Part shown: positions 3,566 through 37,833 of the stretch, one piece after another | Layout: the number at the start of each line of letters is the position of its first letter | How positions within the stretch are numbered: position 1 is the stretch's first letter | Assembly (NCBI GenBank): GCA_018814355.1 | Contig: JAHIZT010000054.1 | Coordinates: 1-55,127 of the forward strand | Source of the DNA: Candidatus Thermoplasmatota archaeon | Lineage (GTDB): Archaea > Thermoplasmatota > Thermoplasmata > UBA10834 | DNA length: 55,127 nt | Direction of reading: 5' to 3' | Made by a program: the position numbers and the translations under genes | Notes under the pieces: model-generated | Databases searched by the model: none | Seen by the model: the letters and a program-made list of their open reading frames with translations, nothing else | What the model was told of the DNA's origin: nothing

Positions 3566-4486
3566 CTACTGGAAGGTCGGTCTCGGCAACAGCCCGGCCA
3601 TCTCGACTATCCTCGGGACCATCTCCTCCCATGCGACCGCCATTATGTGCACGCCGTGGACGCCTTTCACGCTCTTGAGGTGCTCTATCTGCTCGACGCA
3701 GAGTTTGATCCCCTCCTCCTTCGGGTCCTTGGCGGCCTTCATCCGATCGACGATGTGGTCGGGGACGATCATCCCGGGCACCTTGTTCTTCATGTATCTT
3801 GCAGCGCCCGCGGATTTCATGGGGATAACGCCTGCTAGGATGTGCATCTTCTTGTCCAACCCTCTCGCCCTGACCTCGTCCATCCACTTCTCGAACATGT
3901 CCATGTCGAATATCGCCTGTGTTTGGCAGAAGTCTGCTCCCGCGGTGACCTTCTTGGCCAGCCTCGAGACCCTGAACTCGTAAGGGGTCGCGAACGGGTT
4001 TTCAGCGCATCCGAGGTACGTCTTCGGCGGGTCCTTGACGACCTCGCCTCCCACCTGCTTGCCCTCGGTCCTGAGCTGGTTGAACACCTGCAGCTCCACG
4101 ATAGAGTCGAAATCGAACACGTTCCTTGCGGCCTTCTCGTTCCCGAAGATCTGGTGGTCTCCTGTGAGGCAGAGCACATTCTTGACACCCAATGCTGCAG
4201 CTCCGAACAGGTCGCTCTGGAGCGCTATCCTGTTCCTGTCTCTGCAGGTCATCTGTATGATGGGCTCCACGCCCTCGCGCATTATGATGACCGCGCTCGC
4301 GATGCTGGACAACCTCACGACGGCCGTTTGGTTGTCCGTCAGGTTGAAGGCATCAGCGAATCCTCTGAGCATCTTCGCGTGGTGCGTCAGCGGTTCCGGG
4401 TTTGCGGACTGAGGAGGCCCGATCTCGGCTGTGACGGCGAACTTCCCGGACTCGAAGACCTTCTCGAGGTTGCTGCCCGCCTTCAT
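3566..4486 (-). CDS. metF: Methylene-tetrahydrofolate reductase, MetF (short form)
   Basis: Reduces 5,10-methylene-THF to 5-methyl-THF on a TIM-barrel flavin enzyme. The 306-residue length matches the short MetF of acetogens, without the eukaryotic regulatory domain. Visible family features are the N-terminal FAVTAEIGPP strand with the catalytic Glu, the segment VLCLTGDHQ near residue 105 (substrate/flavin loop), and ADFCQTQAIFDMD near residue 186. Its ATG overlaps the stop of metV by four bases, so the two are translationally coupled. It is the last gene of an operon with two HdrA-type flavoproteins, mvhD and metV, resembling the MetVF-HdrABC-MvhD cluster known from acetogens such as Moorella (established knowledge). 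The electron donor is therefore probably the Hdr module rather than NAD(P)H (inference). Confidence 0.93.
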   Translation of the reverse strand: MKAGSNLEKVFESGKFAVTAEIGPPQSANPEPLTHHAKMLRGFADAFNLTDNQTAVVRLSSIASAVIIMREGVEPIIQMTCRDRNRIALQSDLFGAAALGVKNVLCLTGDHQIFGNEKAARNVFDFDSIVELQVFNQLRTEGKQVGGEVVKDPPKTYLGCAENPFATPYEFRVSRLAKKVTAGADFCQTQAIFDMDMFEKWMDEVRARGLDKKMHILAGVIPMKSAGAARYMKNKVPGMIVPDHIVDRMKAAKDPKEEGIKLCVEQIEHLKSVKGVHGVHIMAVAWEEMVPRIVEMAGLLPRPTFQ

Positions 4487-5187
4487 TGGACCGCCTCCTT
4501 TCCTTTCTTCTGGTGAGGCGTGAGCTTCGCGTCCTCGCGCACGTACACTCTGCGCCCGCCCGCATGGCTGGTGGACCAGTCCTTCGCTGGCATGACCTTC
4601 TCGATCAGGTCCAGCCTGTTCTGGATCTTCAGTCTGTCATAGATGGCCGCCCATGCGCAGTCGATCTCTAGGTTGACCTCGCACTTCCTGTTGGCCGAGC
4701 CTCCGCAAGGTCCGTTGAGCATGCTCTTCGCGCATCTCGAGATAGGGCATATGCCGCCCGTGGTGTGTATGATGCAGTTCCCGCATCCGACACATTTCTC
4801 CGACCAGACACCCTGCTCCTCCGGTACTCCGAAGATGCCTGTGTTCAGGCCTGGGAATGTCAGGTGCGAAGGGTACATGTCCCCGATTGTCTGCGCGCCC
4901 AACGAGCAGGCCATGGAGAGCGTGATATCGGAATCGAGCACCTTGTCCTCGACCTCCTTCACCCACTCCTTCTCGCACTGTCTCTCGACTACGAGCCCGT
5001 CGAGCTCCTGCTTCCTGCCCTCCTTCCTGTTCTTCACCTTGAGGGCGGAGACCAGCATCTTGACCTCCTTCTCGCCTCCTGCGAGGCAGATTGCAACGCA
5101 GCTCCTGCAGCCGATGACTGTGACTTTCTTGTAAGGCGCGAGCATCTCGGCGATCTCGTTCAAGGGCTTCCTCTTCGCCACTATCAT
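4483..5187 (-). CDS. metV: MetV-type zinc/iron-sulfur partner of methylene-THF reductase
   Basis: A 234-residue member of the MTHFR C-terminal domain family, the partner subunit of short MetF in acetogens. It is Cys-rich in the characteristic places: GCRSCVAIC near residue 26 and a C-terminal block CVGCGNCIIHTTGG followed by CPISRCAKSMLNGPCGG. These probably bind zinc and a [4Fe-4S] cluster and pass electrons to MetF. Both ends overlap neighbours by four bases (mvhD upstream, metF downstream), the tightest possible coupling. The role is inferred from the family and from gene order; the protein itself carries no flavin motif. Confidence 0.87.
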   Translation of the reverse strand: MIVAKRKPLNEIAEMLAPYKKVTVIGCRSCVAICLAGGEKEVKMLVSALKVKNRKEGRKQELDGLVVERQCEKEWVKEVEDKVLDSDITLSMACSLGAQTIGDMYPSHLTFPGLNTGIFGVPEEQGVWSEKCVGCGNCIIHTTGGICPISRCAKSMLNGPCGGSANRKCEVNLEIDCAWAAIYDRLKIQNRLDLIEKVMPAKDWSTSHAGGRRVYVREDAKLTPHQKKGKEAVQ

Positions 5188-5597
5188 TGCTTCTCACCCC
5201 CGATGGGACCGAGCTTCTTTGCAACACCGACCATCTTCGTAACTATCTCCGGGAAGGCCCACGCGTTCGTGGATGCCGCATTGAACATCTCGACACGTTC
5301 CTTCTCGATGCCTACCTCGGAAAGCATCTGCTTCACGTACTCGACCCTCTTCCGGCCCTCTATCGAGCCAGTGTCGTAGTAGCAGTTCTTCTCGAGGCAG
5401 CCGAGCACGAAGACCGCATCGGCCCCGTCCTCGAGCGCCTTCAGGATATGGATTCCGTCAACTCTGCCGGTGCACGGCACCTGGACGAGCCGCACGCTCG
5501 CATCGAACTGCTTCCCGCTCCTCGCGGACAGGACGGCTGCGTCCACGCCGTGCCTCTCACAGCAGAATCCGATGACCTTCGGCTTCCTCTCGGCCAT
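5184..5597 (-). CDS. mvhD: MvhD-family electron-transfer subunit of the MetFV-Hdr operon
   Basis: A 137-residue MvhD-family protein, which in methanogens carries a [2Fe-2S] cluster and links hydrogenase or formate dehydrogenase to HdrA. Conserved parts are GFCC (Cys12, Cys13), VPCTGRVD, and LGCLEKNCYY near residue 72. The first motif differs from the classic FCCNWC: after CC comes ERHG, so one of the usual Cys residues is missing. The copy in the formate dehydrogenase operon (18455-18874) keeps all of them. The start overlaps the HdrA stop by one base (TGATG) and the end overlaps metV by four bases. It probably bridges the HdrA core to MetFV. Confidence 0.88.
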   Translation of the reverse strand: MAERKPKVIGFCCERHGVDAAVLSARSGKQFDASVRLVQVPCTGRVDGIHILKALEDGADAVFVLGCLEKNCYYDTGSIEGRKRVEYVKQMLSEVGIEKERVEMFNAASTNAWAFPEIVTKMVGVAKKLGPIGGEKQ

Positions 5598-7174
5598 CAG
5601 AAATCACCTCCGAGGAGTGTGCGCGCCTCTTCCATCACTTGGTCGTCAGTGTAGTGGTGCAGGTCGATCGCCTTGCTAGGGCAGATGCCGACGCACATGC
5701 CGCAACCCTGGCATGCCTGCACTTTGATTTCTGCCTTGCTCGCGGCGCCTATGAACGGTGCCTCGTACGGGCATGTCCTGATGCATGTAAGGCAGGCGGA
5801 GCACTTCTCGGGCGTGACCTGCGCGACCGAACCACCGTACTCCAGCTTTCCGCGCTTGACGAACTCTCCTGCCATGGCGCCTGCAGCCTCACCTTCCGCC
5901 TTCGCGACATCTCTTGCCTTGGGAAACAGCGCTGAACCGCAAACGAACACTCCAGGCTTAGGGGTAGTGACAGGCCATCTCTGGATGCTCCCGCGTCTGA
6001 TAGAACCGTCGACGGTCAACGGGATCCTCAGCGCATCGGCGATCATCTGGTTGTCCTGGTTCGCCGGGATCGACGCGAATACGAGCGTCCCGAGCTTGAG
6101 GTTCAGGACTTCTCCTTGTGAGAAGTCCTTCACAGTGAGCGCAATCGGGTTCTTGGCGTCTATCTTCGGCGCTCCAGCCTTGTCGTATCTGATGAATCTG
6201 ACGCCCAGGTCCGCGGCTTCCTTGTACGCTAGCTCGGACAGTCCGAACGCCCTCATTTCTTGGAAGATGACATAGATCAGCAGCTCCGGGTGCTTCTTCT
6301 TGAGCTGGATCACAGTCTCTAGCGTGTCGTCCCACGCATAGTCTTGGACCTTCAATGTCTTGCCCGCGGGGTCCGGAGTATCGACGATCACGACCGGTCC
6401 CTTCGGGACATTACCTGACTGCATATGCTCGTAGAACATGTACAACGGGACAGCGTCTTTGACCGCCTTCGCGAGCGGGCCCTTCAAGGTAGTCCATCCG
6501 CCTCCAGTGGCGATGACGACGGCCGCCGCGCCGAGTTCCTCGACCTTCTCTCCGGCCTTGATCTTGAGCTGGAAGTTGCCGCCGTATCCGGAAGCACCGA
6601 CTAGCTGTGCATGCGTCATGATTACCCCGGGGACTTTGAGCGACTTGCTCGTCTTTTCCAGCAGTATGGTGTGGGCACCTGATTTCGCAGCCTCGTGCGC
6701 AGCCGCCTGACCTGCAACTCCAGCACCGACTATGACGACGTTCTTCGTCTTCATCTCCTCGCTCTGCTTCTCGAGTGGGGCGAGCATGATCGTGCGCGTG
6801 AGCGCTGCCTTCAGCTTCGTCTCCGCCTTCGCCTGAGCTCTCTCGGGCTCGTCCGCGTGTGGCAGGACGACCTCTTCCCTCATGTTCACGAGCTCGATCA
6901 GGAATTCGTTGATGCCAGCTCTCCTGTAGGCCTTCAGCAGGTTGGGGCTGATGTCCTTCTTGTGGCAGGCGAGGACGACGGCTCTATCGACCTCTCTTTC
7001 CTTGGCCTCGCCTACGATTCGTGCGAGGTCTTTCCCGTCGCACACGGCGTCCACGGTCATGACCGAGACGACCATGCTGGAGTCCTCAGCGAGCTTCTGC
7101 AGCTTCTCCATGTTCAGGAGCTTGGGCATCTCCGTGCAGCATTTGCACAGGACGACCTGGATTCTGGCCTTCAC
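5597..7174 (-). CDS. hdrA: HdrA-like flavoprotein (QmoB-like half) of the MetFV operon
   Basis: A 525-residue HdrA-family protein. The N-terminal part (1-130) is a thioredoxin-like Hdr region with VVLCKCCTEMP at 7-17. An FAD Rossmann motif (VIVGAGVAGQAAA) starts near 147, and the C-terminus has two [4Fe-4S] motifs, CSACLTCIRTCP (458-469) and CQGCGMCVGICP (488-499). The central QCVGSR/YCS/CC signature present in the other three HdrA copies of this window is absent; that region reads VDTPDPAGK and has no Cys. Its start overlaps the stop of the upstream HdrA partner by four bases. Length and gene order (short HdrA, long HdrA, MvhD) resemble QmoA plus QmoB split before its MvhD domain (inference). 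Confidence 0.87.
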   Translation of the reverse strand: MKARIQVVLCKCCTEMPKLLNMEKLQKLAEDSSMVVSVMTVDAVCDGKDLARIVGEAKEREVDRAVVLACHKKDISPNLLKAYRRAGINEFLIELVNMREEVVLPHADEPERAQAKAETKLKAALTRTIMLAPLEKQSEEMKTKNVVIVGAGVAGQAAAHEAAKSGAHTILLEKTSKSLKVPGVIMTHAQLVGASGYGGNFQLKIKAGEKVEELGAAAVVIATGGGWTTLKGPLAKAVKDAVPLYMFYEHMQSGNVPKGPVVIVDTPDPAGKTLKVQDYAWDDTLETVIQLKKKHPELLIYVIFQEMRAFGLSELAYKEAADLGVRFIRYDKAGAPKIDAKNPIALTVKDFSQGEVLNLKLGTLVFASIPANQDNQMIADALRIPLTVDGSIRRGSIQRWPVTTPKPGVFVCGSALFPKARDVAKAEGEAAGAMAGEFVKRGKLEYGGSVAQVTPEKCSACLTCIRTCPYEAPFIGAASKAEIKVQACQGCGMCVGICPSKAIDLHHYTDDQVMEEARTLLGGDF

Positions 7175-8406
7175 GTGCTCACCTCTCTCTGGTGATGCAT
7201 CCTTGAAACTGTAGCGGCTGCCCTGATTGCGGTCTCCTCGATGTCCATCGGTTCCGAAACGGCACCGCAGACGAACACGCCCTTGCTCTCCAGTTCGTGG
7301 TCCGCAACGGCAAAGCCCGACTTGTCTGTATGGATTCCCAAGGACTTCGCAAGCTCAGCAGAAGCGCCTGATGGGCGCATGCCAACGGACAGGATGATCA
7401 GGTCATACTCCGTCTCCGTGATATCCAGGTCGTTTTCTCCAGCGGCCCTCAGGAGCAGCTTTCCATCCTTGCCTGGCGAGACCACGGAGGGCATGCTCCT
7501 GATCAGCTTCACCGTCTTTTTGCTCTTCGCCCAGAGCTTGAACTCGTCTTGTGGTTCGTAGAGCGTCCTGAGATCCATGAAGTAGAAGTCGAGGTTGATC
7601 TCAGGGTCCGTATCGAGCAGGAGCTGGGAGATCTTGGTCGCGTACTTGCAGCAGAACTTGGAGCAGTACTCGACCCCCAGCTTGACTGTCCTGGAGCCCA
7701 CGCATTGCATGACAGCTATCTTCTTCGGGGCCTTCCCATCGGACGGCCTCATAAGCCGTCCTTTTTCGTTCAGGATCCTCTCGGCGTCCACGCTCGAGAT
7801 GACATCCTTCAGCGTGCCGCACCCGAGCCTGCTCATCTCGCAGGCATCAATCGGGTCGATGCCGGTTGCATAGACTACGGCACTCACGTTCCTTGTGAGG
7901 TTCTTCGCGCGATCCTCGTAATCGACCGCGTGCGTGGGACAGACAGATGCGCACTTGTCGCACTTGACCTTCTTGAAATGTAGGCACTTGGACCTATCGA
8001 TCCAGTGCAGTCTCGGCTGGCCGCTTCCGGTCGGAGGGAATATCGCCTTTCCCTCGACTGGGCAGACCGCCACGCACTTGCCGCAGCCGATGCAGTCGTC
8101 CGTCACGTATCTAGGGGAGGTCTTGATCTTGACGGAGTATCCATGGTCGGCCTTTGTGGCGGAGGCTACCTCAGAAAGAAGGAGCACTTCGGCGTTGGGC
8201 TCTCTCAGTATCTCGCCTGCGCGGTCCATGGCGAAGCACACTCCGCAGTTCCTGCACTCTACCAGACCCTTGCAGGTGAGCTCTCGGGCCATCCCGCCCA
8301 GTGATTCCTTCCGCTCGACAAGGACGACTTCTGTTCCCCTGTCGACGAGGGTCTTCGCAGCGGTCAGTCCCGCTGGCCCCCCTCCTACTATCAGGACTTG
8401 GTTCAT
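7171..8406 (-). CDS. hdrA: HdrA-like flavoprotein (QmoA-like half) of the MetFV operon
   Basis: A 411-residue HdrA-family protein. The chosen ATG at 8406 has a strong AAGGGGGG site about six bases upstream; a longer frame back to 8433 has none. The protein opens directly with the FAD motif VLIVGGGPAGLT. Then follow CRNCGVC, a [4Fe-4S] motif CIGCGKCVAVCP, a second Cys group CDKCASVCP, and the central HdrA signature QCVGSR with YCSKFCC. The C-terminus has the usual second FAD-contact segment GVFVCGAVSEPMD. It lacks the N-terminal thioredoxin-like part and the C-terminal ferredoxin pair of full HdrA, which sit in the partner gene downstream. It is the first gene of the operon, with its own TATA element near 8495. 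Confidence 0.87.
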   Translation of the reverse strand: MNQVLIVGGGPAGLTAAKTLVDRGTEVVLVERKESLGGMARELTCKGLVECRNCGVCFAMDRAGEILREPNAEVLLLSEVASATKADHGYSVKIKTSPRYVTDDCIGCGKCVAVCPVEGKAIFPPTGSGQPRLHWIDRSKCLHFKKVKCDKCASVCPTHAVDYEDRAKNLTRNVSAVVYATGIDPIDACEMSRLGCGTLKDVISSVDAERILNEKGRLMRPSDGKAPKKIAVMQCVGSRTVKLGVEYCSKFCCKYATKISQLLLDTDPEINLDFYFMDLRTLYEPQDEFKLWAKSKKTVKLIRSMPSVVSPGKDGKLLLRAAGENDLDITETEYDLIILSVGMRPSGASAELAKSLGIHTDKSGFAVADHELESKGVFVCGAVSEPMDIEETAIRAAATVSRMHHQREVST

Positions 8407-8490
8407 TTCAACCCCCCTTGGTGAACGGCTCATCGGTTGTCCCCCCTGTCCAGTGGGGACATGCTGTGGTAACCTGGAACGCTGATGGGG

Positions 8491-8499
8491 AGATAAAAG
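8491..8499 (-). promoter_or_regulatory. Candidate TATA box for the hdrA-mvhD-metVF operon
   Basis: The minus strand reads GCTTTTATCT here, about 90 bases before the start of the first HdrA gene, between that gene and the end of fhs. A second AT-rich element (CCTTAATAC) lies about 25 bases further upstream. Either would let the operon be transcribed separately from fhs. Confidence 0.45.
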
Positions 8500-8536
8500 C
8501 CCTCCCCGTTGGGATTTGTATTAAGGGGTTTTGGCG

Positions 8537-8560
8537 CCTCCGGAACTCAATGTCCGGAGG
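8537..8560. repeat. Perfect 8-bp inverted repeat after fhs
   Basis: CCTCCGGA, an 8-base spacer, then TCCGGAGG. It lies 13 bases after the fhs stop codon, where a terminator or mRNA-end hairpin is expected. No T tract follows on the fhs strand, so it is only terminator-like. Confidence 0.5.
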
Positions 8561-8572
8561 TTCTCGGCGTGC

Positions 8573-10291
8573 TTAGTTCAGTCCGGTGATGTAGCCCTTG
8601 TCGTCGATGTTTATCTTCTCGGCGACTGGTTCGACCGGCAGGCCCGGCATCGTCGACATCTCGCCCGTGATCGGGACGATGAATCCTGCACCTGCAGACA
8701 GCCTGACCTCTCTCACGGTTAGCGACCAGCCCTTGGGCGCGCCCTTCTTCTTTGGGTCGTCGGTGAGCGACAGCTGGGTCTTTGCCATGCAGAGCGGGAG
8801 CTTGTCGTTCCCGTTCTTCTCGATGGTTGCGATGTTCTGAGATGCGGTCCCGACATATACGACTCCGTCCGCCCCGTAGATCTCCTTCGCAATGATCTCG
8901 ATCTTCTTCTTGATCGGGAGCTTCTCGTCGTACAGGTAGTGGAAGTTGGACTTCTCCTTCTCCAGGCACTCGAGTACGGCCTTGGCGAGTTCGATGCCCC
9001 CCTTCCCTCCCTCAGCGAACACGCGGGAGTGGGCAGAGCGCACGCCCATCTTGTCGCAGTGCTTCTTGCACAGGTCAAGCTCTGCCTCTGTGTCGGTCGG
9101 GAATCTGTTCAACGCCACGACCACTGGCACGCCGAACTTGTGCATGTTCTCTATGTGCTTGTCCAGGTTGGCGAAGCCCTTCTCGAGGTACTCGAGGTGC
9201 TTCTTCTCCTCTTCCTTCGCCGGAGCGTTCTTCTTGAGAAGCGCATCTAGCTCGTCCTCGGTCATGTCGCCGTGCATCTTGAGCGCCCTAACGCTCGAGA
9301 CGAGGACTGCCACATCGGGCTTGAGGTTCGCGGTCCTGCAAACTATGTCGTAGAACTTCTCTCCACCCAGGTCGGCTGCGAAGCCGCCCTCGGTGATCAC
9401 GTAGTCGGCCATCTTGAGCGCGTACTTCGTGGCGATGATCGAGCTGTTGCCGTGGGCTATGTTGGCGAACGGAGCGCCGTGGACGAACGCCGGCTGGCCC
9501 TCGAGGGTCTGAACCAGGTTGGGCATCATCGCGTCCTTGAGCAATAGACACATCGAGCCGATGCCCTTCAGCTTGTCAGCAGTGACCGGCTTGTTGTCGT
9601 ATGTGTATCCAACCACGATCCTCGACAGCCTCGCCCTCAGGTCGGCCATGTCTTTCGATAGAGCCATGATGGCCATGATCTCGGATGCGACTGTAATATC
9701 GAACCCGCTCTCGTGTGGGATGCCGCCGTCCTTCCTGCCGCCGAGCCCGACAACGATCTTCCTGAGCTCCCTGGCGTTCATGTCCATGACCTTTCTCAGG
9801 ACGATCCTGGTCGGGTCTATCTGGAGCGTGTTCCTCTTGCCTATGTGGTTCTCGAGGAGCACCGACAGAAGGTTGTGGGCCGTGCCCACTGCATGTATGT
9901 CGCCCGTGAAGTGGAGGTCGATGTCCCACATGGGGTATATCTGGGAGTTACCGCCACCGGTGGCGCCTCCCTTGATGCCGAAGGTCGGCCCTAGCGAGGG
10001 CTGCCTCAGGGACAGCATGACCTTCTTGCCCAATACTCCGAAGGCCTGGCACATGCCTATGGATGTGACCGTCTTTCCCTCCCCCGCCTTTGTTGCCGTT
10101 ATTGCAGTCACGAAGATCAGCTTGCCATCCTTGTTCTTATCGAACTTCTTCAGGACGTCCAACGGGACCTTGGCCTTGTATTTCCCATAGAATTCAAGGT
10201 CGTCGCGGGAGAGACCTACCTTCTCCGCGATCTTCTCGATGTGCTGGACCTTCGCTGCCTGCGCAATCTCAATATCTGGTTTCATGGCCAT
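8573..10291 (-). CDS. fhs: Formate--tetrahydrofolate ligase
   Basis: Makes 10-formyl-THF from formate, THF and ATP, the entry step of the bacterial-type methyl branch of the Wood-Ljungdahl pathway and a formyl source for PurH. From the ATG at 10291 it is 572 residues, close to the usual 557; the 28 residues before it in the open frame look non-coding. Key features are the P-loop-like TATKAGEGKTVTSIGM near residue 65, LRQPSLGPTFGIKGGATGGG near 95, and DIHAVGTAHNL. The C-terminal end GEMSTMPGLP is also typical. It is minus-strand, just upstream of the Hdr-MetFV operon but separated from it by 166 bases containing a hairpin and a TATA element. folD lies divergently on the other side. Confidence 0.96.
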   Translation of the reverse strand: MAMKPDIEIAQAAKVQHIEKIAEKVGLSRDDLEFYGKYKAKVPLDVLKKFDKNKDGKLIFVTAITATKAGEGKTVTSIGMCQAFGVLGKKVMLSLRQPSLGPTFGIKGGATGGGNSQIYPMWDIDLHFTGDIHAVGTAHNLLSVLLENHIGKRNTLQIDPTRIVLRKVMDMNARELRKIVVGLGGRKDGGIPHESGFDITVASEIMAIMALSKDMADLRARLSRIVVGYTYDNKPVTADKLKGIGSMCLLLKDAMMPNLVQTLEGQPAFVHGAPFANIAHGNSSIIATKYALKMADYVITEGGFAADLGGEKFYDIVCRTANLKPDVAVLVSSVRALKMHGDMTEDELDALLKKNAPAKEEEKKHLEYLEKGFANLDKHIENMHKFGVPVVVALNRFPTDTEAELDLCKKHCDKMGVRSAHSRVFAEGGKGGIELAKAVLECLEKEKSNFHYLYDEKLPIKKKIEIIAKEIYGADGVVYVGTASQNIATIEKNGNDKLPLCMAKTQLSLTDDPKKKGAPKGWSLTVREVRLSAGAGFIVPITGEMSTMPGLPVEPVAEKINIDDKGYITGLN

Positions 10292-10325
10292 TCCAAACCC
10301 TCTCTTGGAGGGGGTAGCGTACACA

Positions 10326-10335
10326 CCTAAAAAGC
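10326..10335 (-). promoter_or_regulatory. Candidate TATA box for fhs
   Basis: Minus-strand GCTTTTTAGG about 35-45 bases before the fhs start codon, giving a predicted leader of about 15-20 bases. It is flanked by another AT-rich run (CGAAATTTCG). Confidence 0.45.
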
Positions 10336-10523
10336 TTTTTCGAAATTTCGACGAATATCGCAGCGTTTGATGCAATAGATTCGTTTGTCGAGGAGAACGT
10401 GGACAGTTCTCGTCATGGAGCCATGCTTTCAGGCCCGTTGCCGGGAATCGGGCCCATCGAGGAATGAAAACGCTATCGATTTTCGCTCACCCATCTCTTC
10501 GAGGAAGGCAATTTGCCAAGAAT

Positions 10524-10532
10524 CCTTAAGTA
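10524..10532 (+). promoter_or_regulatory. Candidate TATA box for folD
   Basis: CCTTAAGTA, centred about 36 bases before the chosen folD ATG, so transcription should start roughly 10 bases before it. The same CTTAAG-type core recurs before the polyprenyl synthase and rubrerythrin genes of this window. Confidence 0.5.
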
Positions 10533-10563
10533 CGGAATCTGCATCCCGTTTTCAGGTGGTCAC

Positions 10564-11454: not shown

Positions 11455-11483
11455 AACATGTACTGTATCTAGCGGGTCGAGAA

Positions 11484-11502
11484 CCAGGACTATGAGTCCT
11501 GG
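11484..11502 (+). terminator. Hairpin downstream of folD
   Basis: A perfect 8-bp stem, CCAGGACT / AGTCCTGG, with a 3-base loop, about 30 bases after the folD stop. It is followed by a pyrimidine-rich stretch (CCCCTTGTTCTCCTTCT), which fits an archaeal transcription end. Confidence 0.45.
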
Positions 11503-13553: not shown

Positions 13554-13601
13554 GGTGTCGACCTCTGTTTCCCCACAGGAACTCATAGGACACGTGATGA
13601 C

Positions 13602-13838: not shown

Positions 13839-13850
13839 GAGGATGGTCAC

Positions 13851-14888: not shown

Positions 14889-14897
14889 GTCCTTCGG

Positions 14898-14913
14898 GCA
14901 GGGAGCTCCCTGC
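14898..14913 (+). terminator. Hairpin terminator after the membrane protein gene
   Basis: A perfect 16-base palindrome, GCAGGGAGCTCCCTGC, starting ten bases after the stop and followed by a T-rich tail (TCGGTTCAATCATTTTC). Confidence 0.55.
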
Positions 14914-15016
14914 TCGGTTCAATCATTTTCCATGAGAGCATCTCCGCCTGCGACCAGTCCATGTAGGTCACTCCGCAAAGATTACCTATCGCCAGAGCCG
15001 TTTCCACCTCGCGCAG

Positions 15017-15625
15017 GTGATTGTCGCGACGGGAGAGAGATTCTCTGCTGCCATTACGAAGGCCTTCGGCGAGCTTAGCGCCAGGGATATTGAGTTGGTG
15101 GCCTCGAATTCTGGCGGAGTTGTTTCAGGCACGGAACTGCGGATCGCGGTCTTGGACAGAACCGCTCTTGTGGACACCGATGTTGGGACCGTGAGGTGGG
15201 ACGACGGGACCGAGCCGGAGGACACCCTCAAGGTGATACTGCTTCACTATCTCTTGGGAGCCGACGGCAGAATCGACGGCGAGTGGATGTCATTCCGGGA
15301 GTTCGAGAGCGGCAATCTCTACTACTCAGTCTTCCACGGAAGGGCGCTGGTCCAGTTGATCTCAGCGTTTGGATCGGACCCGGCCCGGCTGGTCGCCGCT
15401 TCGGTCAAGCTGGGCGGCACGAGAGTGGAGCGGGGCGATGCATCCTTCGACTTTCTGTTCTTTCCCCACCTCAAGATGAACATCACGATATGGAAGGGTG
15501 ACGACGAGGTCCCCGCATCGGCAAACATATTGTTCGATGCCGCTGCCGGCAGGATCCTTGGCGCTGAAGACCTTGCGCATCTCGCAGAAGATATCGCCGA
15601 GACGCTCGAACGCATGGCTAGGTGA
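15017..15625 (+). CDS. DUF3786-like protein
   Basis: 202 residues resembling DUF3786: an N-terminal helix (FSAAITKAFGELSARDIELVA), a beta-rich part ending in ILLHYLLGADGR, then WMSFREFESGNLYYSVFHGR, and a C-terminal beta segment ending in a helix. DUF3786 proteins are often encoded near corrinoid or Wood-Ljungdahl genes in anaerobes, though their function is not established. The start is a GTG; no ATG is available nearby and the ribosome-binding site is poor, so the start is uncertain. It converges on the end of fdhA, six bases away. It could serve C1 metabolism, but this rests on neighbourhood alone. Confidence 0.6.
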   Translation: MIVATGERFSAAITKAFGELSARDIELVASNSGGVVSGTELRIAVLDRTALVDTDVGTVRWDDGTEPEDTLKVILLHYLLGADGRIDGEWMSFREFESGNLYYSVFHGRALVQLISAFGSDPARLVAASVKLGGTRVERGDASFDFLFFPHLKMNITIWKGDDEVPASANILFDAAAGRILGAEDLAHLAEDIAETLERMAR

Positions 15626-15631
15626 GAACGA

Positions 15632-17668
15632 CTAGGCCTTGGCTACTTTTGCCGCACAGACCTTCAGTTCGGGGATGTTGGATATCGGGTCGAGCGCCGC
15701 GTTCGTCAACCTGTTCGCCGCCGCCTCGGCATAGTGGAACGGGATGAAGATCGAGCCGAGGATTATTCTGTCGGTGACTCGCGCTTTCAGCGTGATCGAG
15801 CCACGCTTGGATGACACCGCCACCCTCTCACCGTCATTGATGCCGAGCCGCTTCGCATCCGAACCGTTGATCTCGACGTACGGCTCAGGGGCCTCCCGCT
15901 CGAGCTTGGGCGATCTTCGGGTCATCGTGCCCGTGTGGTACTGGAACAGGTTCCGGCCGGTGGTCAGGATGAACGGATACTCCTCAGACGGCTCCTCCAT
16001 CGGCGGTGCATGCTCCACTGGTGCAAAGACTCCGAGGCCTTTCGTGAACTTCTGAGTGTGCAGAATCCTGGTCCCCTGGTGCTCCTTCGTCGGACAGGGC
16101 CACCGGAGCACCTGCTTGTCTATCCTGCCGAAGTCGATTCCGGCGTATTGGGGAGTCAGGGAAGCCATCTCTGCCATGACCTCTGCAGGGGACGAGAAGT
16201 CAAAACCGGGAGAACCCAGCCGCTTGCCCAGGTCGCATGCGATGACCCAATCGGCCCTAGCCTCTCCTGGTGGATCCACAGCCTTCCTGAGCAGTCGTAT
16301 CGCTCTGTCGGTGGATGTGAACGTGCCATCTTTCTCTGCGTAGCACCCCGCCGGGAGAACCACGTGCGCCTTCTGGGCAGTTTCAGTTGGGAATATGTCG
16401 ACGACGGCAAGGAACTCGAGCTCCTCGATCGCTTCCTCGAGGTGTCCGAGGTCCGGATCGGAGATCATGACGTTCTCGCCGAAGATGATCATGGCCTTCA
16501 ACTTGCCAGCCATCGCCTCCTTCATCGCACACGTAAGTGTGAGCCCCGGATTGCCAGGCAGTTGCACGCCCCAGGCCTTCTCGAACTTCGCTTTGGATTC
16601 CGGGTCATCTACCCTCTGATATCCCGGGAAGAGGTTGGGAAGACCACCAGCATCACAAGCTCCCTGGACATTGCACTGTCCTCTGAGGGGGTTGAGTCCG
16701 GTGGACTCCTTACCGATATGGCCGGTCACCATCGCGAGGTTTGCCATGGCCTTCACAAGGTTCGTACCGTTGCTGTGCTGTGTGATGCCCATCGCGTATG
16801 CGATCATGGCCTTCTCGGTCTTGGCGTACAAGCGCGCGGCCTCGACCAGCTTCTCCCTAGGTATGCCGGTCGTCGCCTCGACCTTCTCGGCTGTGTAGTC
16901 CTTCACGACCTCCTTCAGCTCATCGAAGGCCGTCGTCCTCTGCTTGACGAATTCCTCGTTGACGAGGCCCTCGTCGATGATGATCTTGATCATGCCGTTT
17001 ATCCACGAGATGTCCGTGCCCGGTCTCTGATGCAGAGAAAGATGGGATATCCTTGACAATGGAGTCTCCCTTGGATCGACGACGATTATCTTCGCGCCCT
17101 TGTCCAGCGCTCTCAACATCCTAGCACCGATCATCGGGTGGGCTTCGAGCGTGTTTGAGCCAGTGATCAGAATGCATTCGGCATTGTCGAACTCCGGGAT
17201 GGTGTTCGTCATCGCGCCGCTTCCGAAAGAGTAGAGCAGTCCAGAGACGGTAGATGCGTGGCAGAGCCTCGCGCAGTGATCCACATTGTTGGTGCCCAGA
17301 GCCGCACGCGCGAGTTTCTGGATCAGATAGTTCTCCTCGTTGGTGCACTTCGCAGAGGCAAGAACGGCGATCGAATCCGGGCCGAATTTCTCCCTGATTC
17401 TCGTGACCTCCTTCACGATCCTGTCCATGGCCTGCTCCCAGGTGACCTGCTTGAGCTGCCCACCCTCTCGGATCATCGGGTGCTTGAGCCTGTCAGGGTG
17501 CTGGACGAAGGCGTGTGCGTTGTATCCCTTTATGCAAAGCCTCCCGAGACTTATCTCATCAGTCTTGCATGGGACGACGCCCACTAGCCTGCCATCGGCG
17601 ACCTGCAGGAAGAAGTTGCAACCGGTGCCGCAGTACGGGCAGGTGGTCAGCACGTGCTTAACACTCAT
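15632..17668 (-). CDS. fdhA: Formate dehydrogenase catalytic subunit (molybdopterin, Cys type)
   Basis: A 678-residue molybdo/tungsto-bis-PGD oxidoreductase catalysing formate oxidation or CO2 reduction. Numbered from the Met at 17668, the N-terminal [4Fe-4S] site is CPYCGTGC (Cys10, 13, 17) plus Cys45. The metal ligand is Cys136 in HCARLCHAST, at the selenocysteine position of E. coli FdhF, followed by the conserved His137. The C-terminal dinucleotide-binding domain has LTTGRNLFQYHTGTMTRRS. An ATG nine bases earlier (17677) directly abuts the GGAGG site, so 17668 has better spacing. It overlaps the end of the upstream iron-sulfur gene. It has the length of FdhA of F420- or Hdr-linked enzymes and no fused diaphorase. 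The operon partners point to electron exchange with an HdrA-MvhD module. MobB for the cofactor is at 29440-30162. Confidence 0.9.
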   Translation of the reverse strand: MSVKHVLTTCPYCGTGCNFFLQVADGRLVGVVPCKTDEISLGRLCIKGYNAHAFVQHPDRLKHPMIREGGQLKQVTWEQAMDRIVKEVTRIREKFGPDSIAVLASAKCTNEENYLIQKLARAALGTNNVDHCARLCHASTVSGLLYSFGSGAMTNTIPEFDNAECILITGSNTLEAHPMIGARMLRALDKGAKIIVVDPRETPLSRISHLSLHQRPGTDISWINGMIKIIIDEGLVNEEFVKQRTTAFDELKEVVKDYTAEKVEATTGIPREKLVEAARLYAKTEKAMIAYAMGITQHSNGTNLVKAMANLAMVTGHIGKESTGLNPLRGQCNVQGACDAGGLPNLFPGYQRVDDPESKAKFEKAWGVQLPGNPGLTLTCAMKEAMAGKLKAMIIFGENVMISDPDLGHLEEAIEELEFLAVVDIFPTETAQKAHVVLPAGCYAEKDGTFTSTDRAIRLLRKAVDPPGEARADWVIACDLGKRLGSPGFDFSSPAEVMAEMASLTPQYAGIDFGRIDKQVLRWPCPTKEHQGTRILHTQKFTKGLGVFAPVEHAPPMEEPSEEYPFILTTGRNLFQYHTGTMTRRSPKLEREAPEPYVEINGSDAKRLGINDGERVAVSSKRGSITLKARVTDRIILGSIFIPFHYAEAAANRLTNAALDPISNIPELKVCAAKVAKA

Positions 17669-18458
17669 CGCACTCATCCTCCAAAGTCTCTCCCTCGAGA
17701 GTCGTGTTCAGCGGGCTGACGGCCTTCGGATCTCCGGGAACATAGCCGTAGACCTCCTTCATGTCTTTGGCCAGCATCTTTCTCAGGGTCAGCAGAGGTA
17801 TCTCCGCCGGGCAGGAGCGCTCGCACTCGCCGCACTCGATGCACTTATCGATCATGTGGTACGACCTGATCATGTGGAACGAAAGGCCCGGGGGTATGCT
17901 CTGCTCGGGGACGAATGTCCTCTCCTCGAGAACGCAGTCGTCGCAGAAGCAGACCGGGCAGTTATGCGTGCACGCGAAGCACTTGTTACACTTTCTGAAC
18001 TGCTTGACCCAGAACTTCAGCCTCTCCTCTGGGGACAGCTTTGCCAGTCTCTCTGACAGATCGTCCTTCGGCACAGGCTCGTTCGGCTCGCCGATGTCGA
18101 CCTTGCTGGGGACGGGGTCGCTGCACCTGCACTTCGCTATCTGCTCCTTGCTGCACGCCAGTCCTATCTTGATTATCCGCTTCTCGTCGATGTAGTTGCG
18201 CTTCGTGAGTTCCGCAAGTGCCTTCTCGTCGCACCTGCGCGTGATGACCGCTATTTTGCCCTTCGGCACCCATGAGTAGATAGTCTCCAGTATAGTGATC
18301 AGCTGATAGGGGATGTCGACCCTGATCTCACCGACATCCTCACCCTTGGAAATGAGCGCAGGAGCGACATTCCCGTGCTCCTCCCTCATCATCAGGAGGT
18401 GGTCTGCGCCGCGCTCGTCGAAGGCGACCTTTGCCAGTCTCCTGCCGAGTTCGCTCAG
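17658..18458 (-). CDS. FdhB/FrhB-like iron-sulfur protein, probable CTG start
   Basis: The protein has an N-terminal alpha/beta part (GKIAVITRRCDEKALAELTK, then IGLACSKEQIAKCRC, as in FrhB/FdhB relatives) and a C-terminal ferredoxin region with CNKCFACTHNCPVCFCDDC and CIECGECERSCP. It would carry electrons between FdhA and the MvhD/HdrA subunits. The open frame runs far upstream through mvhD, but those residues are shadow translation. The only position matching the operon's spacing is a CTG at 18458-18456, whose last two bases belong to the TGA of mvhD and which follows GGAGGTG by five bases; this gives 266 residues. An ATG at 18392 would give 244 residues but lose part of the conserved N-terminus. 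No clear flavin motif is seen. Confidence 0.75.
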   Translation of the reverse strand: MSELGRRLAKVAFDERGADHLLMMREEHGNVAPALISKGEDVGEIRVDIPYQLITILETIYSWVPKGKIAVITRRCDEKALAELTKRNYIDEKRIIKIGLACSKEQIAKCRCSDPVPSKVDIGEPNEPVPKDDLSERLAKLSPEERLKFWVKQFRKCNKCFACTHNCPVCFCDDCVLEERTFVPEQSIPPGLSFHMIRSYHMIDKCIECGECERSCPAEIPLLTLRKMLAKDMKEVYGYVPGDPKAVSPLNTTLEGETLEDECDEC

Positions 18459-18874
18459 AACTTCACCTCCCTCAACGGATTGGGCCCGAGCTTCTGGATA
18501 TCCTGGACAAAATCGGTTATGACCTTCTGGAACTTCTCGCCCTCGGCCGCGCTGACCCAATCCAGTTTCATCCTCTTCTCGTCGATCCCGGTCTCCTTCA
18601 GGACCTTCTGGACCAGGGGCATCCGCTTCGCCGTCCTGTGGTTGCCGGTCATGTAGTGACAGTCGCCTATGTGGCAGCCCAGTACGAGAACGCCGTCGAT
18701 GCCCTGCGACAGGGCTTTTATGACGTATTCCGGCTTCACGCTCGCGCTGCACATGACCCTGATGACATGGACGTTGGGCGGCATCTGGAGCCGGCTGACG
18801 CCCGCCAGGTCGGCCCCAGCGTACGAGCACCAGTTGCAGCAGAATGCGAGTATGGTCGGCCTGAAGTCCGTCAT
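18455..18874 (-). CDS. mvhD: MvhD-family [2Fe-2S] electron-transfer subunit of the Fdh-Hdr operon
   Basis: 139 residues from the ATG at 18874, which overlaps the HdrA stop by four bases; a longer frame to 19000 is an artefact. It has the full set of MvhD Cys: FCCNWCSYAGAD (about 12-23), VMCSASVKPEYV (about 41-52) and LGCHIGDCHY (about 67-76), unlike the copy in the metF operon. MvhD docks hydrogenase or formate dehydrogenase onto HdrA in methanogens (established). Here it should connect the FdhA-side proteins encoded just downstream to the two HdrA-type flavoproteins encoded upstream. Confidence 0.92.
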   Translation of the reverse strand: MTDFRPTILAFCCNWCSYAGADLAGVSRLQMPPNVHVIRVMCSASVKPEYVIKALSQGIDGVLVLGCHIGDCHYMTGNHRTAKRMPLVQKVLKETGIDEKRMKLDWVSAAEGEKFQKVITDFVQDIQKLGPNPLREVKF

Positions 18875-20562
18875 GGCGTCTCCTCCATCGCGCTCTTGAC
18901 GAGCGCGTCGATCATGGCGCCCAGCTGCCTGGTCGTGAACCCTCTCTGTTGCATCGCGTCGTTCGGGCACGCGGCCACACAGGTTCCGCAGCCCTTGCAC
19001 TGGGTCTCGTTGACCTTGGCATAGCGTCTGCCCTCGGATTCCACGATCTCAATCGCCTCGTACGGGCACGCGATCACGCAGTTCCCGCACGCGGCGCATT
19101 TGTCCGGGTCGGACTGCGCCGTGATGGCCTCGATCACGACCTTGCCCCTTCTGATGGGTATGGCAGCTTTCGCGGCGGCCGCCATCCCCTGTGATATGCA
19201 CTCGCTCACGCTGCCTGGCCACCGGGCCGCCCCGCAGACGAAGATGCCGTCCGTGGCGAACTCCACAGGCCTCAGCTTCACGTGAGCCTCGAGGAAGAAC
19301 CCGAACTTGTCTAGCGGGACCTTCAGGAGCTTCCCCACATCGCGCGAGTCTTCGCGTGCCACCATGGGCGACGCGAGAACGACGAGGTCGGCATCGACAT
19401 CGATGTCCTCGTCCAGGGTCTCGTCGAACACCTTCACGACAGTGCCATTCTGGGTGCGTGAGACCTTCGCCGGCCTGTCCAAGCCGTACCTCATGAACCT
19501 GACCCCCTTCTCGGACGCGAGCCTGTACATGTGCTCCGAGGCCGTGCCGGAGCTCATGATGTCTCTGTGCAGGATGGACACGGTAGCATCCGGTGACGCC
19601 TCGAGCACCCTAAGCGCGTTCTTGAGAGAAGTGTTGCAGCAGACGCGGGAGCAGTACTCCCTTCCGGGTTGCCGGCTCCCGACGCACTGTATGAACACCA
19701 CGCGCTTCGGCTTCTCCCCCTTCGCCAGTCTCTTCTCGAGGTCCAGCTGGGTGATTACTCCGGGCACGGTGCCGTAGCTGTACTCCCCCTCCGGGGTCCA
19801 CTCCTTCGCTCCCGTGGCGACTATGATTGCTCCCGCGGGGATCTTCTCCGTCTTTCCGGCCTTGTCGACCGTCACCTCGAAGTTGCCGACGAACCCCTTC
19901 ACATCGGTGACCTTCGATGACATGTGGACATGGGCCTTCGGAGAGGCCTTGAGCTCCTTGGTGAGCATGTCCAAGAGCTCCTCGCTCCTCCTGAACTCCG
20001 GGCCCACGACCTCGATGTCCGCCAGGTTTCCACCCAGCCTTGACTCAGCCTCGATCAAGTGGGTGTCGATGTTCTGGGCGACGAGGGAGGCCGCGGCCGT
20101 GAGGCCTGCTATGCCTCCTCCGATGACGACCGCTGTCGGTATGACGTTCGACTCGCCCTCCTTCTGGGGCTCGAGCAACGCGGCCTTGGCCACACCCATC
20201 GCCACGAGCTTCTTGGCCTTCTCGGTGGCGGACTTCGGCTCCTTGGCGTGTATCCAAGAAACATGCTCCCTTATGTTGACGAATTCGAACTGGTACTTGT
20301 TGATCCCTGCCAGCTCCACGGTCTTCCTGAAGAGCGGCTCGTGGGTCCTCGGCGTGCACGCCGCGACGACGACCCTGTCCAGCTTGTTCTTCTCGATGCT
20401 CTTCTTGATGGAGCCAAGGCCCTCCTCCGAGCACGAGTACAGGTTGTGATCGGCCACGACGACTTCAGGGAGTGTCTTGGCGAACTCCGCGACTTCCTCG
20501 ACGTTCACGGTCGATGCTATGTTGTGGCCGCAATGGCAGATGAATACTCCGATCCTGGCCAT
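18871..20562 (-). CDS. hdrA: HdrA-like flavoprotein (QmoB-like half) of the Fdh operon
   Basis: 563-residue HdrA-family protein. The N-terminal thioredoxin-like region starts MARIGVFICHCGHN and contains the conserved YSCSEEGLG and ACTPRTHEP segments. FAD motif VIGGGIAGLTAAA lies at about 146-158. The central signature QCVGSR with YCSRVCC is intact near 295. Two C-terminal [4Fe-4S] motifs are CAACGNCVIACP and CKGCGTCVAACP. Compared with full-length methanogen HdrA it lacks the inserted ferredoxin region near the FAD site, which the partner gene upstream supplies. It ends in a four-base overlap with mvhD, and its start is only two bases from the partner's stop, so 1:1 synthesis is likely. Confidence 0.9.
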   Translation of the reverse strand: MARIGVFICHCGHNIASTVNVEEVAEFAKTLPEVVVADHNLYSCSEEGLGSIKKSIEKNKLDRVVVAACTPRTHEPLFRKTVELAGINKYQFEFVNIREHVSWIHAKEPKSATEKAKKLVAMGVAKAALLEPQKEGESNVIPTAVVIGGGIAGLTAAASLVAQNIDTHLIEAESRLGGNLADIEVVGPEFRRSEELLDMLTKELKASPKAHVHMSSKVTDVKGFVGNFEVTVDKAGKTEKIPAGAIIVATGAKEWTPEGEYSYGTVPGVITQLDLEKRLAKGEKPKRVVFIQCVGSRQPGREYCSRVCCNTSLKNALRVLEASPDATVSILHRDIMSSGTASEHMYRLASEKGVRFMRYGLDRPAKVSRTQNGTVVKVFDETLDEDIDVDADLVVLASPMVAREDSRDVGKLLKVPLDKFGFFLEAHVKLRPVEFATDGIFVCGAARWPGSVSECISQGMAAAAKAAIPIRRGKVVIEAITAQSDPDKCAACGNCVIACPYEAIEIVESEGRRYAKVNETQCKGCGTCVAACPNDAMQQRGFTTRQLGAMIDALVKSAMEETP

Positions 20563-20564
20563 CC

Positions 20565-21863
20565 CTAGGCACCTCCTTCCAGGAGCTCGGCGACCCTGGC
20601 CGCGACGCCCGAGGCCTGGGCGACGGAGTCGGGGATGTCCATGGGAGCACCCGCGAATCCACAGATAAGGATGCCTTTCATGCTCGAATCGACCGGGTGC
20701 CTGAGGCTAGGTGTCCTAAGGAACCTGTCATCATCGAGCTCGATCCTCAGTAGCTTGGCCAGGTCGGGCGCGCCGCTGGACGGAACGAGTGCAGGGCAGA
20801 GCACCAGCATGTCGAACTCCTCAGTGACCTGCTCCCCAGCCAATCCCCTGGTCTCGTAGGTGACGAGCACTCCGGATCCATCGTTCGCGGGTTGGACCTT
20901 CGCGGGCCTCGACCTGATGTATCTCACGCCGTAGTTCTTCTCAGCTCTCTGGACGAATTCCTGGAAGCCCTTCCCAGTAGCGCGCATATCCATGTAGAAT
21001 ATCGTGCTGTTGATGTCCGGGACGTGCTCCCGGACGAGTATCGATTCCTTCGTCGCGTACATGCAGCACACGCTGCTGCAGTACTTGTACATCTTCTCGT
21101 CTCTCGAGCCGACGCACTGGACGAATCCTAGCTTCCTCGGCTCTTTGCCGTCCGAAGCTCTGACCAGATGGCCGCCTGTAGGCCCGGACGCTGACAGGAT
21201 CCTCTCGAGCTGCAGCGATGTAACGACGTCCTTGCAGATGCCCAGGCCGTACTGGGAAAGAACGGTCACATCGGCCAAGTCGAAGCCGGTCGCCACAACC
21301 ACCGCGGACGCATCCAGCACGACCGTCGAGTCCTTCTGGTCGTACTCTATGGCCCCAGCCTGGCACACCTTCTTGCAAATGCCGCACTTACCGCTCTTGA
21401 TCATCGTACAGTGCTCGGCGTCTATGGTCACCTTGCGAGGGACCGCCTGTGGGAAAGGGAGGTATATTGCCCTCCTTTTGGACAGCTTCTCCTCGAACTC
21501 GTTCGGGACCTTGACGGGGCACTTGGCCACGCAGTCCCCGCAGCCGGTGCACTTGGAGATGTTGACGAATCTCGCTTTCTCCTTGATCGTGACCTTCAGT
21601 TTCGGGAATTCGCCGCTTATCCCCACGACCTCTGAGTATACGTGAAGCTTGACGTTCTCGTGACCAGCGCACATGATCATCTTCGGAGACAGGATGCACA
21701 ACGAGCAGTCGTTTGTGGGGAATGTCTTGTCCAGCTGGGCCATCCTCCCGCCGATCGACGGCGACCTTTCTACGAGATGCACCTCGTATCCCATGTCCGC
21801 GAGGTCCAGCGATGCCTGTATGCCGGCGATCCCTCCTCCTATCACCACGACCTTCTTGGACAT
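20565..21863 (-). CDS. hdrA: HdrA-like flavoprotein (QmoA-like half) of the Fdh operon
   Basis: 432 residues from the ATG at 21863, which has GAGGT seven bases upstream; the extra 20 residues of the longer frame cover the promoter. The protein starts with VVVIGGGIAGIQASLDL and contains the HdrA hallmark TFPTNDCSLCILSPKM, a [4Fe-4S] motif CTGCGDCVAKCP, a second Cys group CGICKKVC, and QCVGSR with YCSSVCC. The C-terminal segment GILICGFAGAPMDIPDS is the usual second FAD contact. It is the first gene of the operon. It pairs with the 563-residue HdrA and MvhD in the same order as the QmoA-QmoB-MvhD-like set in the metF operon. Confidence 0.9.
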   Translation of the reverse strand: MSKKVVVIGGGIAGIQASLDLADMGYEVHLVERSPSIGGRMAQLDKTFPTNDCSLCILSPKMIMCAGHENVKLHVYSEVVGISGEFPKLKVTIKEKARFVNISKCTGCGDCVAKCPVKVPNEFEEKLSKRRAIYLPFPQAVPRKVTIDAEHCTMIKSGKCGICKKVCQAGAIEYDQKDSTVVLDASAVVVATGFDLADVTVLSQYGLGICKDVVTSLQLERILSASGPTGGHLVRASDGKEPRKLGFVQCVGSRDEKMYKYCSSVCCMYATKESILVREHVPDINSTIFYMDMRATGKGFQEFVQRAEKNYGVRYIRSRPAKVQPANDGSGVLVTYETRGLAGEQVTEEFDMLVLCPALVPSSGAPDLAKLLRIELDDDRFLRTPSLRHPVDSSMKGILICGFAGAPMDIPDSVAQASGVAARVAELLEGGA

Positions 21864-37826: not shown

Positions 37827-37833
37827 TGCCAAG

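Follow-up and report, generated by a model that had tools for sequence, protein, structure and literature searches.

Does the folate-type methyl branch encoded in a conserved 18-kb block of an archaeal genome lead to acetyl-CoA or only feed biosynthesis, and do its two redox ends rely on the same coupling core? The block, which carries the genes from CO2 to the methyl group, lies in a window of 55,127 nucleotides (GenBank contig JAHIZT010000054.1). The host is a sediment archaeon of the class Thermoplasmata, near Euryarchaeota archaeon RBG_13_57_23, a kinship also seen in the MetFV tree. An archaeal 16S search of its genome gave no match, and no paper on RBG_13_57_23 was found in the literature. 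Based on the methyl branch in the window, the CO dehydrogenase/acetyl-CoA synthase (CODH/ACS), AcsC, AcsD, AcsE and AcsV elsewhere in the genome, the presence of dihydropteroate synthase (DHPS) and FolC, and the absence of Mch and McrA, we consider it probable (roughly 0.7) that, in this anaerobic archaeon, the block encodes the methyl branch of a bacterial-type Wood-Ljungdahl pathway that uses tetrahydrofolate (THF) and is complete, with HdrA-heterodimer complexes as its redox ends.

Gene content and conservation of the block

Open reading frames (ORFs) of the window were called by NCBIfam/TIGR and Pfam profile matches with cut-offs (Table 1); those assigned in this way are open and match strongly. 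The sequence-only reading had named fdhA, fhs, folD, metF, metV, acs and purH, and had described two operons, each with MvhD and a pair of HdrA genes, one short and one long; both statements are borne out by the ORFs and profile scores. The block exists over the span first proposed (3,566–21,863), except that the short HdrA gene of the formate dehydrogenase (FDH) operon ends at 21,923 and purH lies just outside. The original gene list lacked fdhX, located between mvhD2 and fdhA. A 390-aa ORF at 17,658–18,830 was rejected as a single protein, since its first ~120 residues overlap mvhD2 in another frame. In both Hdr operons, neighbouring genes overlap or abut, with gaps of −20 to +2 bp.

Table 1. 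Genes in and beside the block, with the basis of each assignment
Gene	Product	Position	Strand	Basis
purH	AICAR formyltransferase/IMP cyclohydrolase (uses 10-formyl-THF)	1864..3420	-	NCBIfam PRK00881, 726 bits; TIGR00355 above cut-off
metF	Methylene-THF reductase catalytic subunit	3566..4486	-	Pfam MTHFR, 149 bits; tree
metV	FeS partner subunit of MetF	4483..5187	-	Pfam DUF5981, 119 bits
mvhD1	FeS docking subunit of MetFV module	5184..5597	-	Pfam FlpD, 122 bits
HdrA-long 1		5597..7174	-	N-terminal cluster domain, FAD domain, C-terminal ferredoxin domain
HdrA-short 1		7171..8433	-	No N-terminal domain; inserted ferredoxin domain present
fhs	Formate-THF ligase	8573..10375	-	PRK13505, 809 bits (cut-off 652); tree
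folD	Methylene-THF dehydrogenase/cyclohydrolase	10513..11454	+	NCBIfam FolD models, up to 389 bits; both Pfam domains
acs	AMP-forming acetate-CoA ligase	11799..13553	+	PRK04319, 841 bits, above cut-off
	Predicted membrane protein, 345 aa	13851..14888	+	Conserved between acs and fdhA
	DUF3786 protein	15017..15625	+	Pfam DUF3786, 147 bits
fdhA	Formate dehydrogenase catalytic subunit	15632..17677	-	TIGR01591, 844 bits (cut-off 666)
fdhX	FdhB-like electron-transfer subunit, 267 aa	17658..18461	-	phmmer to 7bkb_E/8rvu_E; AlphaFold model
mvhD2	FeS docking subunit of FDH module	18455..18874	-	Pfam FlpD, 185 bits
HdrA-long 2		18871..20562	-	N-terminal domain, FAD domain, C-terminal ferredoxin domain
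HdrA-short 2		20565..21923	-	Inserted ferredoxin domain; no N-terminal domain

The predicted 345-aa membrane protein, which matched no known family in profile searches, has orthologues in L156 and L164 with 76–82% identity. A gene related to that of the DUF3786 protein also adjoins acsE. MetV, as a query against the PDB, returned no match.

Linkage of the FDH and MetFV modules could be assessed in the nine family genomes in which both lie on a single contig, and in all nine FdhA and MetV are separated by 3.8–12.8 kb. Three genera of the family share the gene order of the block, and a second family of the same taxonomic order preserves it for the metFV-fhs-folD half; this recurrence rules out chance or an assembly artefact as its origin. 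In genome G005, the FDH module directly adjoins acsE-acsV-acsC-acsD, tying FDH to the carbonyl branch. The MetFV and Fhs trees each place these proteins in one old Thermoplasmata clade, common to the Methanomassiliicoccales and nested among bacteria, with metF grouping with bacterial MetF; the trees, suggested earlier as a check on bacterial origin, support a bacterial affinity for MetFV and Fhs.

HdrA modules and predicted electron flow

According to PMC9012536, heterodimeric HdrA pairs consist of one copy with the N-terminal domain and without Cys197, and a partner with the reverse arrangement. Both modules follow this rule, and the cysteines are conserved in the family: HdrA-long 1 and HdrA-long 2 lack Cys197, whereas HdrA-short 1 and HdrA-short 2 retain Cys194/197. 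The bifurcation signature (E356/K409, taken from PMC9430772) has equivalents in HdrA-short 1, HdrA-short 2 and HdrA-long 2, all of which also keep the FeS cluster of the TrxR domain; signature and cluster are missing from HdrA-long 1, consistently over the family. The MetFV operon, which was fully read, contains neither HdrB nor HdrC, and HdrB/D-type CCG proteins are encoded elsewhere. The idea that the two ends share one type of coupling core thus holds for their common short HdrA, long HdrA and MvhD, but not for the long HdrA of the MetFV side. Judged by these residues and domains, the two cores are related in build and not identical, and we infer one bifurcation-type FAD on the MetFV side and two on the FDH side, with a corresponding difference in predicted bifurcation capacity.

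FdhA carries a Cys-His active-site motif at residue 139. FdhX is ∼115–145 aa shorter than the FdhB of methanogens (380–414 aa) and consists of a shortened flavin/F420-type domain and a two-cluster ferredoxin domain. Its phmmer match to 7bkb_E/8rvu_E covers the ferredoxin end only; the AlphaFold model again matches these chains best, and there the match extends over a portion of the N-terminal domain. FdhX matches the FdhB of solved Fdh-Hdr complexes in both sequence and modelled fold.

In the proposed pathway, FdhA would interconvert CO2 and formate, Fhs and FolD would convert formate to methylene-THF, and MetF/MetV would reduce the latter to methyl-THF. The corrinoid protein AcsCD would receive the methyl group from AcsE, and the fused CODH-ACS would combine it with CO to give acetyl-CoA. 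From homology, both redox ends are predicted to be multi-subunit complexes whose electron carrier is a heterodimer of two HdrA paralogues. On the FDH side, the electrons would pass from FdhA through the FdhX clusters and MvhD2 to the C-terminal ferredoxin domain of HdrA-long 2 and onward, via two bifurcation-type FADs, to the ferredoxin domain inserted in HdrA-short 2 (soluble ferredoxin). On the MetFV side, electrons would enter at the MvhD1 port, MetF/MetV would replace HdrBC as the high-potential acceptor, and the exergonic reduction of methylene-THF would be coupled to ferredoxin reduction, with the single bifurcation-type FAD located in HdrA-short 1. Counting against this coupling, the related MetVF-Hdr system of Sporomusa ovata showed no co-reduction of ferredoxin or NAD (PMC9430772). 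Complex formation, bifurcation, direction and electron partners are all predictions from homology. We regard as doubtful a redox loop with the two modules as its unequal halves: the single-signature MetFV-HdrA heterodimer would split electrons and so reduce ferredoxin as methyl-THF forms, and the FDH-HdrA heterodimer, with its double signature, would spend that ferredoxin, together with a second donor, on the conversion of CO2 to formate; if such a loop exists, an archaeon without methanogenesis could run acetogenesis with folate.

Carbonyl branch and alternative roles

The window contains no CODH/ACS, as originally noted, but the genome does. A 1379-aa ORF matches TIGR01702 and NF040764, both above cut-off, as a fused CODH/ACS; AcsE-type (methyl-THF methyltransferase) and AcsV-type proteins are present, as are AcsC and AcsD, which were classified via G007 orthologues, acsD being split by a contig break. 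The CODH/ACS genes of this assembly are spread over two small contigs. Since all these proteins occur in the same genome, we conclude that the methyl branch, whose destination the sequence-only reading had left undecided, probably leads to acetyl-CoA. That acs is of the AMP-forming type points to acetate being taken up rather than produced. DHPS and FolC both score above cut-off and, judged by these two enzymes, the cell would make THF. Mch (methenyl-H4MPT cyclohydrolase), detected in three control archaea, is absent from all 40 genomes searched (this one and 39 relatives). The methanopterin (H4MPT) branch, named earlier as the counter-case, is therefore rejected, and the assignment of a THF-type branch to an archaeon stands. 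The suggested search for methyl-coenzyme M reductase found McrA absent from this genome and its family and present in two other members of the class.

Two directions are conceivable for the pathway: one leading from CO2/H2 or formate to acetyl-CoA, and an oxidative one starting from methyl groups that the MttB-type methyltransferase system of this genome would deliver. A mainly oxidative, methylotrophic role is a serious contender, at somewhat less than even odds: methylated amines or betaine-like compounds would give methyl-THF via MttB-type proteins, a corrinoid protein and MeTr, part of which would be oxidized to CO2 via MetFV-FolD-Fhs-FdhA and part joined with CO2-derived CO into acetyl-CoA. 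Contig C37 of the genome carries together two MttB-family ORFs, their cognate corrinoid protein and a methyl-THF:corrinoid methyltransferase-type gene. The THF-branch steps are reversible in principle, and PMC11264602 proposes methylotrophic acetogenesis for Gimiplasmatales. However, direction is not readable from genes, and the Vhu-type hydrogenase of this genome, linked to HdrA and MvhD, suits reductive use equally.

It is very unlikely that the THF genes serve only purine, thymidylate and methionine synthesis, as in Methanosarcinaceae, with the Hdr modules working in some unconnected part of metabolism. Although purH adjoins metF in family genomes, and MetF and MetV of Methanosarcinaceae sit in anabolic clusters, that anabolic set lacks the Fhs found here (PMC9012536). 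AcsE and the full CODH/ACS, the position of FDH beside acsE in G005, and the overlap of MetFV and Hdr genes within one operon further contradict a purely biosynthetic role, which we reject. FdhA might also be another molybdopterin oxidoreductase on the same Hdr port, with formate for Fhs supplied from elsewhere, as a large part of FdhB's F420/flavin domain is missing from FdhX, and FdhA-like proteins in ANME Hdr clusters have unproven substrates (PMC9012536). This is unlikely, given the TIGR01591 match far above cut-off, the Cys-His motif, and linkage to the MetFV-fhs block in nine genomes and to acsE in G005.

If the block does belong to a complete Wood-Ljungdahl pathway, folate-type acetyl-CoA synthesis would be old and stably inherited within one archaeal class, and relatives of the pathway genes occur in methylotrophic methanogens of the same class. 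One organism would offer two natural HdrA heterodimers with different predicted bifurcation capacity, and the energy gain of acetogens at the methylene-THF reductase step becomes testable by comparing two modules of one cell.

Relation to known systems

The pathway is already known in such archaea, and the design has archaeal precedents: gene sets of similar content have been reported from Methanomassiliicoccales and Gimiplasmatales (PMC6147122, PMC10804542, PMC11264602). What looks new is the way the genes are laid out and how the two modules differ. Ca. Gimiplasmatales COMBO-56-21 (PMC11264602) and Methanomassiliicoccales MALP (PMC6147122) share Fhs, FolD, MetF, CODH/ACS and the THF carrier. 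Gimiplasmatales likewise lack Mcr (PMC11264602), whereas MALP has Mcr and lacks formate dehydrogenase (PMC6147122). Kinship of the window genome itself is shown only to RBG_13_57_23. Within the phylum, cdhED is reported only for Gimiplasmatales and Methanomassiliicoccales (PMC9287336). Linked FDH-Hdr and MetFV-Hdr modules, HdrA heterodimers and a CODH-ACS fusion are not described in the available parts of PMC11264602 and PMC6147122.

The MetVF-HdrCBA-MvhD systems of Moorella thermoacetica and Sporomusa ovata (PMC9430772) have the same MetV, MetF and MvhD in an operon and an HdrA with two FAD halves, and S. ovata shows the one-signature pattern of the MetFV module. In contrast, HdrA in the window is split over two genes, HdrB and HdrC are missing from the operon, and HdrA-short 1 keeps the inserted ferredoxin domain absent from the compared S. 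ovata HdrA part. Archaeal MetFV, HdrA and MvhD are shared with the Ca. Syntrophoarchaeum clusters (PMC9012536) and with the putative Met complex of M. intestinalis (PMC6085437), for which bacterial ancestry has been proposed; M. intestinalis, unlike the window archaeon, is a methanogen. The available parts of these two papers describe neither an FDH-Hdr twin module nor Fhs linkage.

The FDH module has the same FdhA, FdhB-type subunit, MvhD and HdrA as methanogen Fdh-Hdr (7bkb, 8rvu chains) and ANME FdhAB-HdrA clusters (PMC9012536), but its operon lacks HdrB and HdrC and its FdhX is shorter. As the organism lacks Mcr, the Hdr module of the window has no known heterodisulfide role. As in the window, the tandem HdrA copies 5/6 and 12/13 of ANME complement each other in Cys197 and the N-terminal domain (PMC9012536).

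Gene layout and host

All genes called in the sequence-only reading were identified in the window. The genes of each Hdr operon overlap or abut (spacing −20 to +2 bp), and neither operon contains HdrBC genes. Absent from that reading's list was fdhX, which encodes a 267-aa protein in the FDH operon. A sequence search aligned its C-terminal half with residues 280–388 of 7bkb chain E, the ferredoxin portion of methanogen FdhB, and the top structural matches to its AlphaFold model (mean pLDDT 78) are the same methanogen FdhB chains.

Features of the window and of related loci
Location	Feature	Context
11–1802	two neighbouring KaiC-related ATPases, archaeal type	
	purH	low end of window, before metF operon
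	operon 1: metF-metV-mvhD-HdrA-long-HdrA-short	
	fhs	139 bp upstream of metF operon
	folD, then acetyl-CoA synthetase (acs)	strand opposite to fhs/MetFV operon
13851–14888	345-aa predicted membrane protein, no known family	after acs; position between acs and fdhA conserved; orthologues in loci L156 and L164 (76–82% identity)
15017–15625	DUF3786 protein	between membrane protein and operon 2
	operon 2: HdrA-short-HdrA-long-mvhD-fdhX-fdhA	
28146–31924	HdrD/HdrB-type protein with CCG domains, MobB with FeS domain, 568-aa B12-binding protein	grouped; between pathway genes and complex I cluster
35273–48536	complex I-type cluster (NuoA, B, H, I, L, M, N), then polyprenyl synthase, UbiE-type methyltransferase, geranylgeranyl reductase	
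L070 5636–6232; L155 13894–14466; L093 3750 region	DUF3786 genes	other loci
L171 4104–8984 (same genome, contig C37)	two MttB-family methyltransferases without in-frame stops, cognate corrinoid protein	methyl-THF:corrinoid methyltransferase-type gene divergent from these

DUF3786 genes recur next to fdhA, next to acsE and, in Methanomassiliicoccales, between fhs and hdrA; thus, this family of unknown function looks linked to the Wood-Ljungdahl pathway. The complex I-type cluster and its neighbours suggest a quinone-linked or ferredoxin-linked respiratory complex near the pathway genes.

At 2.06 Mb in 135 contigs, the genome is 97% complete. Euryarchaeota archaeon RBG_13_57_23 is a close relative, as are several Thermoplasmata MAGs; the MetFV and Fhs of the genome cluster with theirs in trees, and Methanomassiliicoccales lie one step further out. 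Judged by sequence, the host is an archaeon of the class Thermoplasmata. Since cdhED has been reported only in Ca. Gimiplasmatales and Methanomassiliicoccales (PMC9287336), it is likely a (putative) Ca. Gimiplasmatales member.

End point and origin of the pathway

Whether the branch ends in acetyl-CoA or only feeds biosynthesis had been left to a search of the genome for CODH/ACS, methyltransferase, folate and methanogenesis markers. A search for the ACS domain revealed a 1379-aa ORF in this genome, and most of the family has one of comparable length. In the 1379-aa ORF, CO dehydrogenase (TIGR01702, residues 28–652) is fused to acetyl-CoA synthase (NF040764, residues 680–1378), both matches being over cut-off. 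AcsD, AcsC, AcsV, CooC-like ATPases and AcsE are encoded next, acsD being split in this genome across two contigs (C96 and C73). Dihydropteroate synthase and FolC are also present. The methanopterin-branch marker Mch gave no match in 40 genomes, with positive matches in three control archaea, and McrA is absent from the family. Taken together, these presences and absences settle, at the gene level, that the predicted pathway is a full bacterial-type Wood-Ljungdahl pathway, not a biosynthetic remnant.

In a concatenated MetV and MetF tree, sequences from the window's order and those from Methanomassiliicoccales fall into a single clade (SH-aLRT 99) within the bacterial spread, with Bacillota nearest (93). 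The Fhs tree recovers the archaeal clade (99) with the same split, except that Fhs of one Methanomassiliicoccales MAG (locus L096) groups with Chloroflexi. The trees support a bacterial affinity of MetFV and Fhs and fit a single early acquisition from bacteria followed by descent. As these are quick trees without bootstrap, with a bacterial sample taken from search matches, we do not claim an exact donor.

The CODH-ACS fusion also occurs in Methanomassiliicoccales (52–60% identity). Like the Thermoplasmata, a Bacillota MAG (L182/L197, G053 C221) seems to encode CODH and ACS as a single fused 1429-aa open frame, a resemblance that may hint at the side of the donor.

HdrA composition of the two modules

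Aligned to M. thermolithotrophicus HdrA (5odc), both modules match the heterodimeric-HdrA pattern (PMC9012536), whose cysteines are conserved in the family. The residues marking the bifurcating flavin, E356 and K409 (PMC9430772), are both found in HdrA-short 1 of the MetFV module and in HdrA-short 2 and HdrA-long 2 of the FDH module, and are invariant among family-level matches (n=22, 22 and 15, respectively, some genomes being counted twice). HdrA-long 1 of the MetFV module, in contrast, has lost E356, K409 and the TrxR-domain cluster. By a pattern test in which several loci represent the same genome seen twice, this cluster occurs in 0/27 MetV-adjacent long HdrAs of the HdrA-long 1 type, in 18 of the 20 long HdrAs that are not part of MetV operons (almost all of these are linked to FDH), and in 10/10 of the other type in bacterial, mostly actinobacterial, MetFV operons. 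Therefore, the proposal that both redox ends share the same type of coupling core needs correction.

In Thermoleophilia-type MetFV operons of Actinomycetota (L107, L108, L115, L117, L119, L122), the short-HdrA matches lie ~1.4 kb or more apart, a spacing reminiscent of the NfnB-like insertion reported for HdrA of ANME-1.

Linkage, direction and known systems

FdhA orthologues (68–79% identity) occur throughout the family and in a second family of the order, and FdhA lies 3.8–12.8 kb from MetV in all nine genomes with both genes on one contig. Three genera share the order FDH module, acs, folD/fhs, MetFV module, which is rearranged locally in one genome (G007). In RBG_13_57_23, the FDH module directly adjoins acsE, acsV, acsC and acsD instead, and thus is independently tied to the carbonyl branch.

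CO2 reduction is the endergonic end of the branch. Methylene-THF reduction is the exergonic end, at −200 mV (PMC9430772). HdrBC genes are lacking in both operons. In the simplest interpretation, MetV-MetF would fill the HdrBC place on the MetFV side, and the FDH module would work between formate, ferredoxin and a partner docking elsewhere. The genome encodes a Vhu-type hydrogenase that has an HdrA and an MvhD of its own, and also MttB-family methyltransferases together with a corrinoid protein and the product of a MeTr-type gene, so acetyl-CoA formation may be either CO2-reducing or methylotrophic. The MeTr-type gene on C37 could be the second methyltransferase reported missing in Gimiplasmatales (PMC11264602).

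In open-licence literature, we found no description of the conserved FDH-MetFV Hdr module linkage, the non-equivalent HdrA heterodimers of these modules, the shortened FdhB, the absence of HdrBC, or the fused CODH-ACS. For Gimiplasmatales MAGs, Fhs, FolD, MTHFR and acsA-E have been reported and methylotrophic acetogenesis proposed (PMC11264602). Other published accounts describe a C1-THF pathway with ACS/CODH, without FDH, in Methanomassiliicoccales (PMC6147122) and, for the archaeon M. intestinalis, a putative bifurcating Met complex with proposed bacterial ancestry (PMC6085437); Thermoprofundales have H4F genes and almost no Cdh/Acs (PMC6461988). Of the two modules, that on the MetFV side resembles the Sporomusa ovata system, with one signature flavin of two, and that on the FDH side is similar to the type in which both flavins carry the signature.
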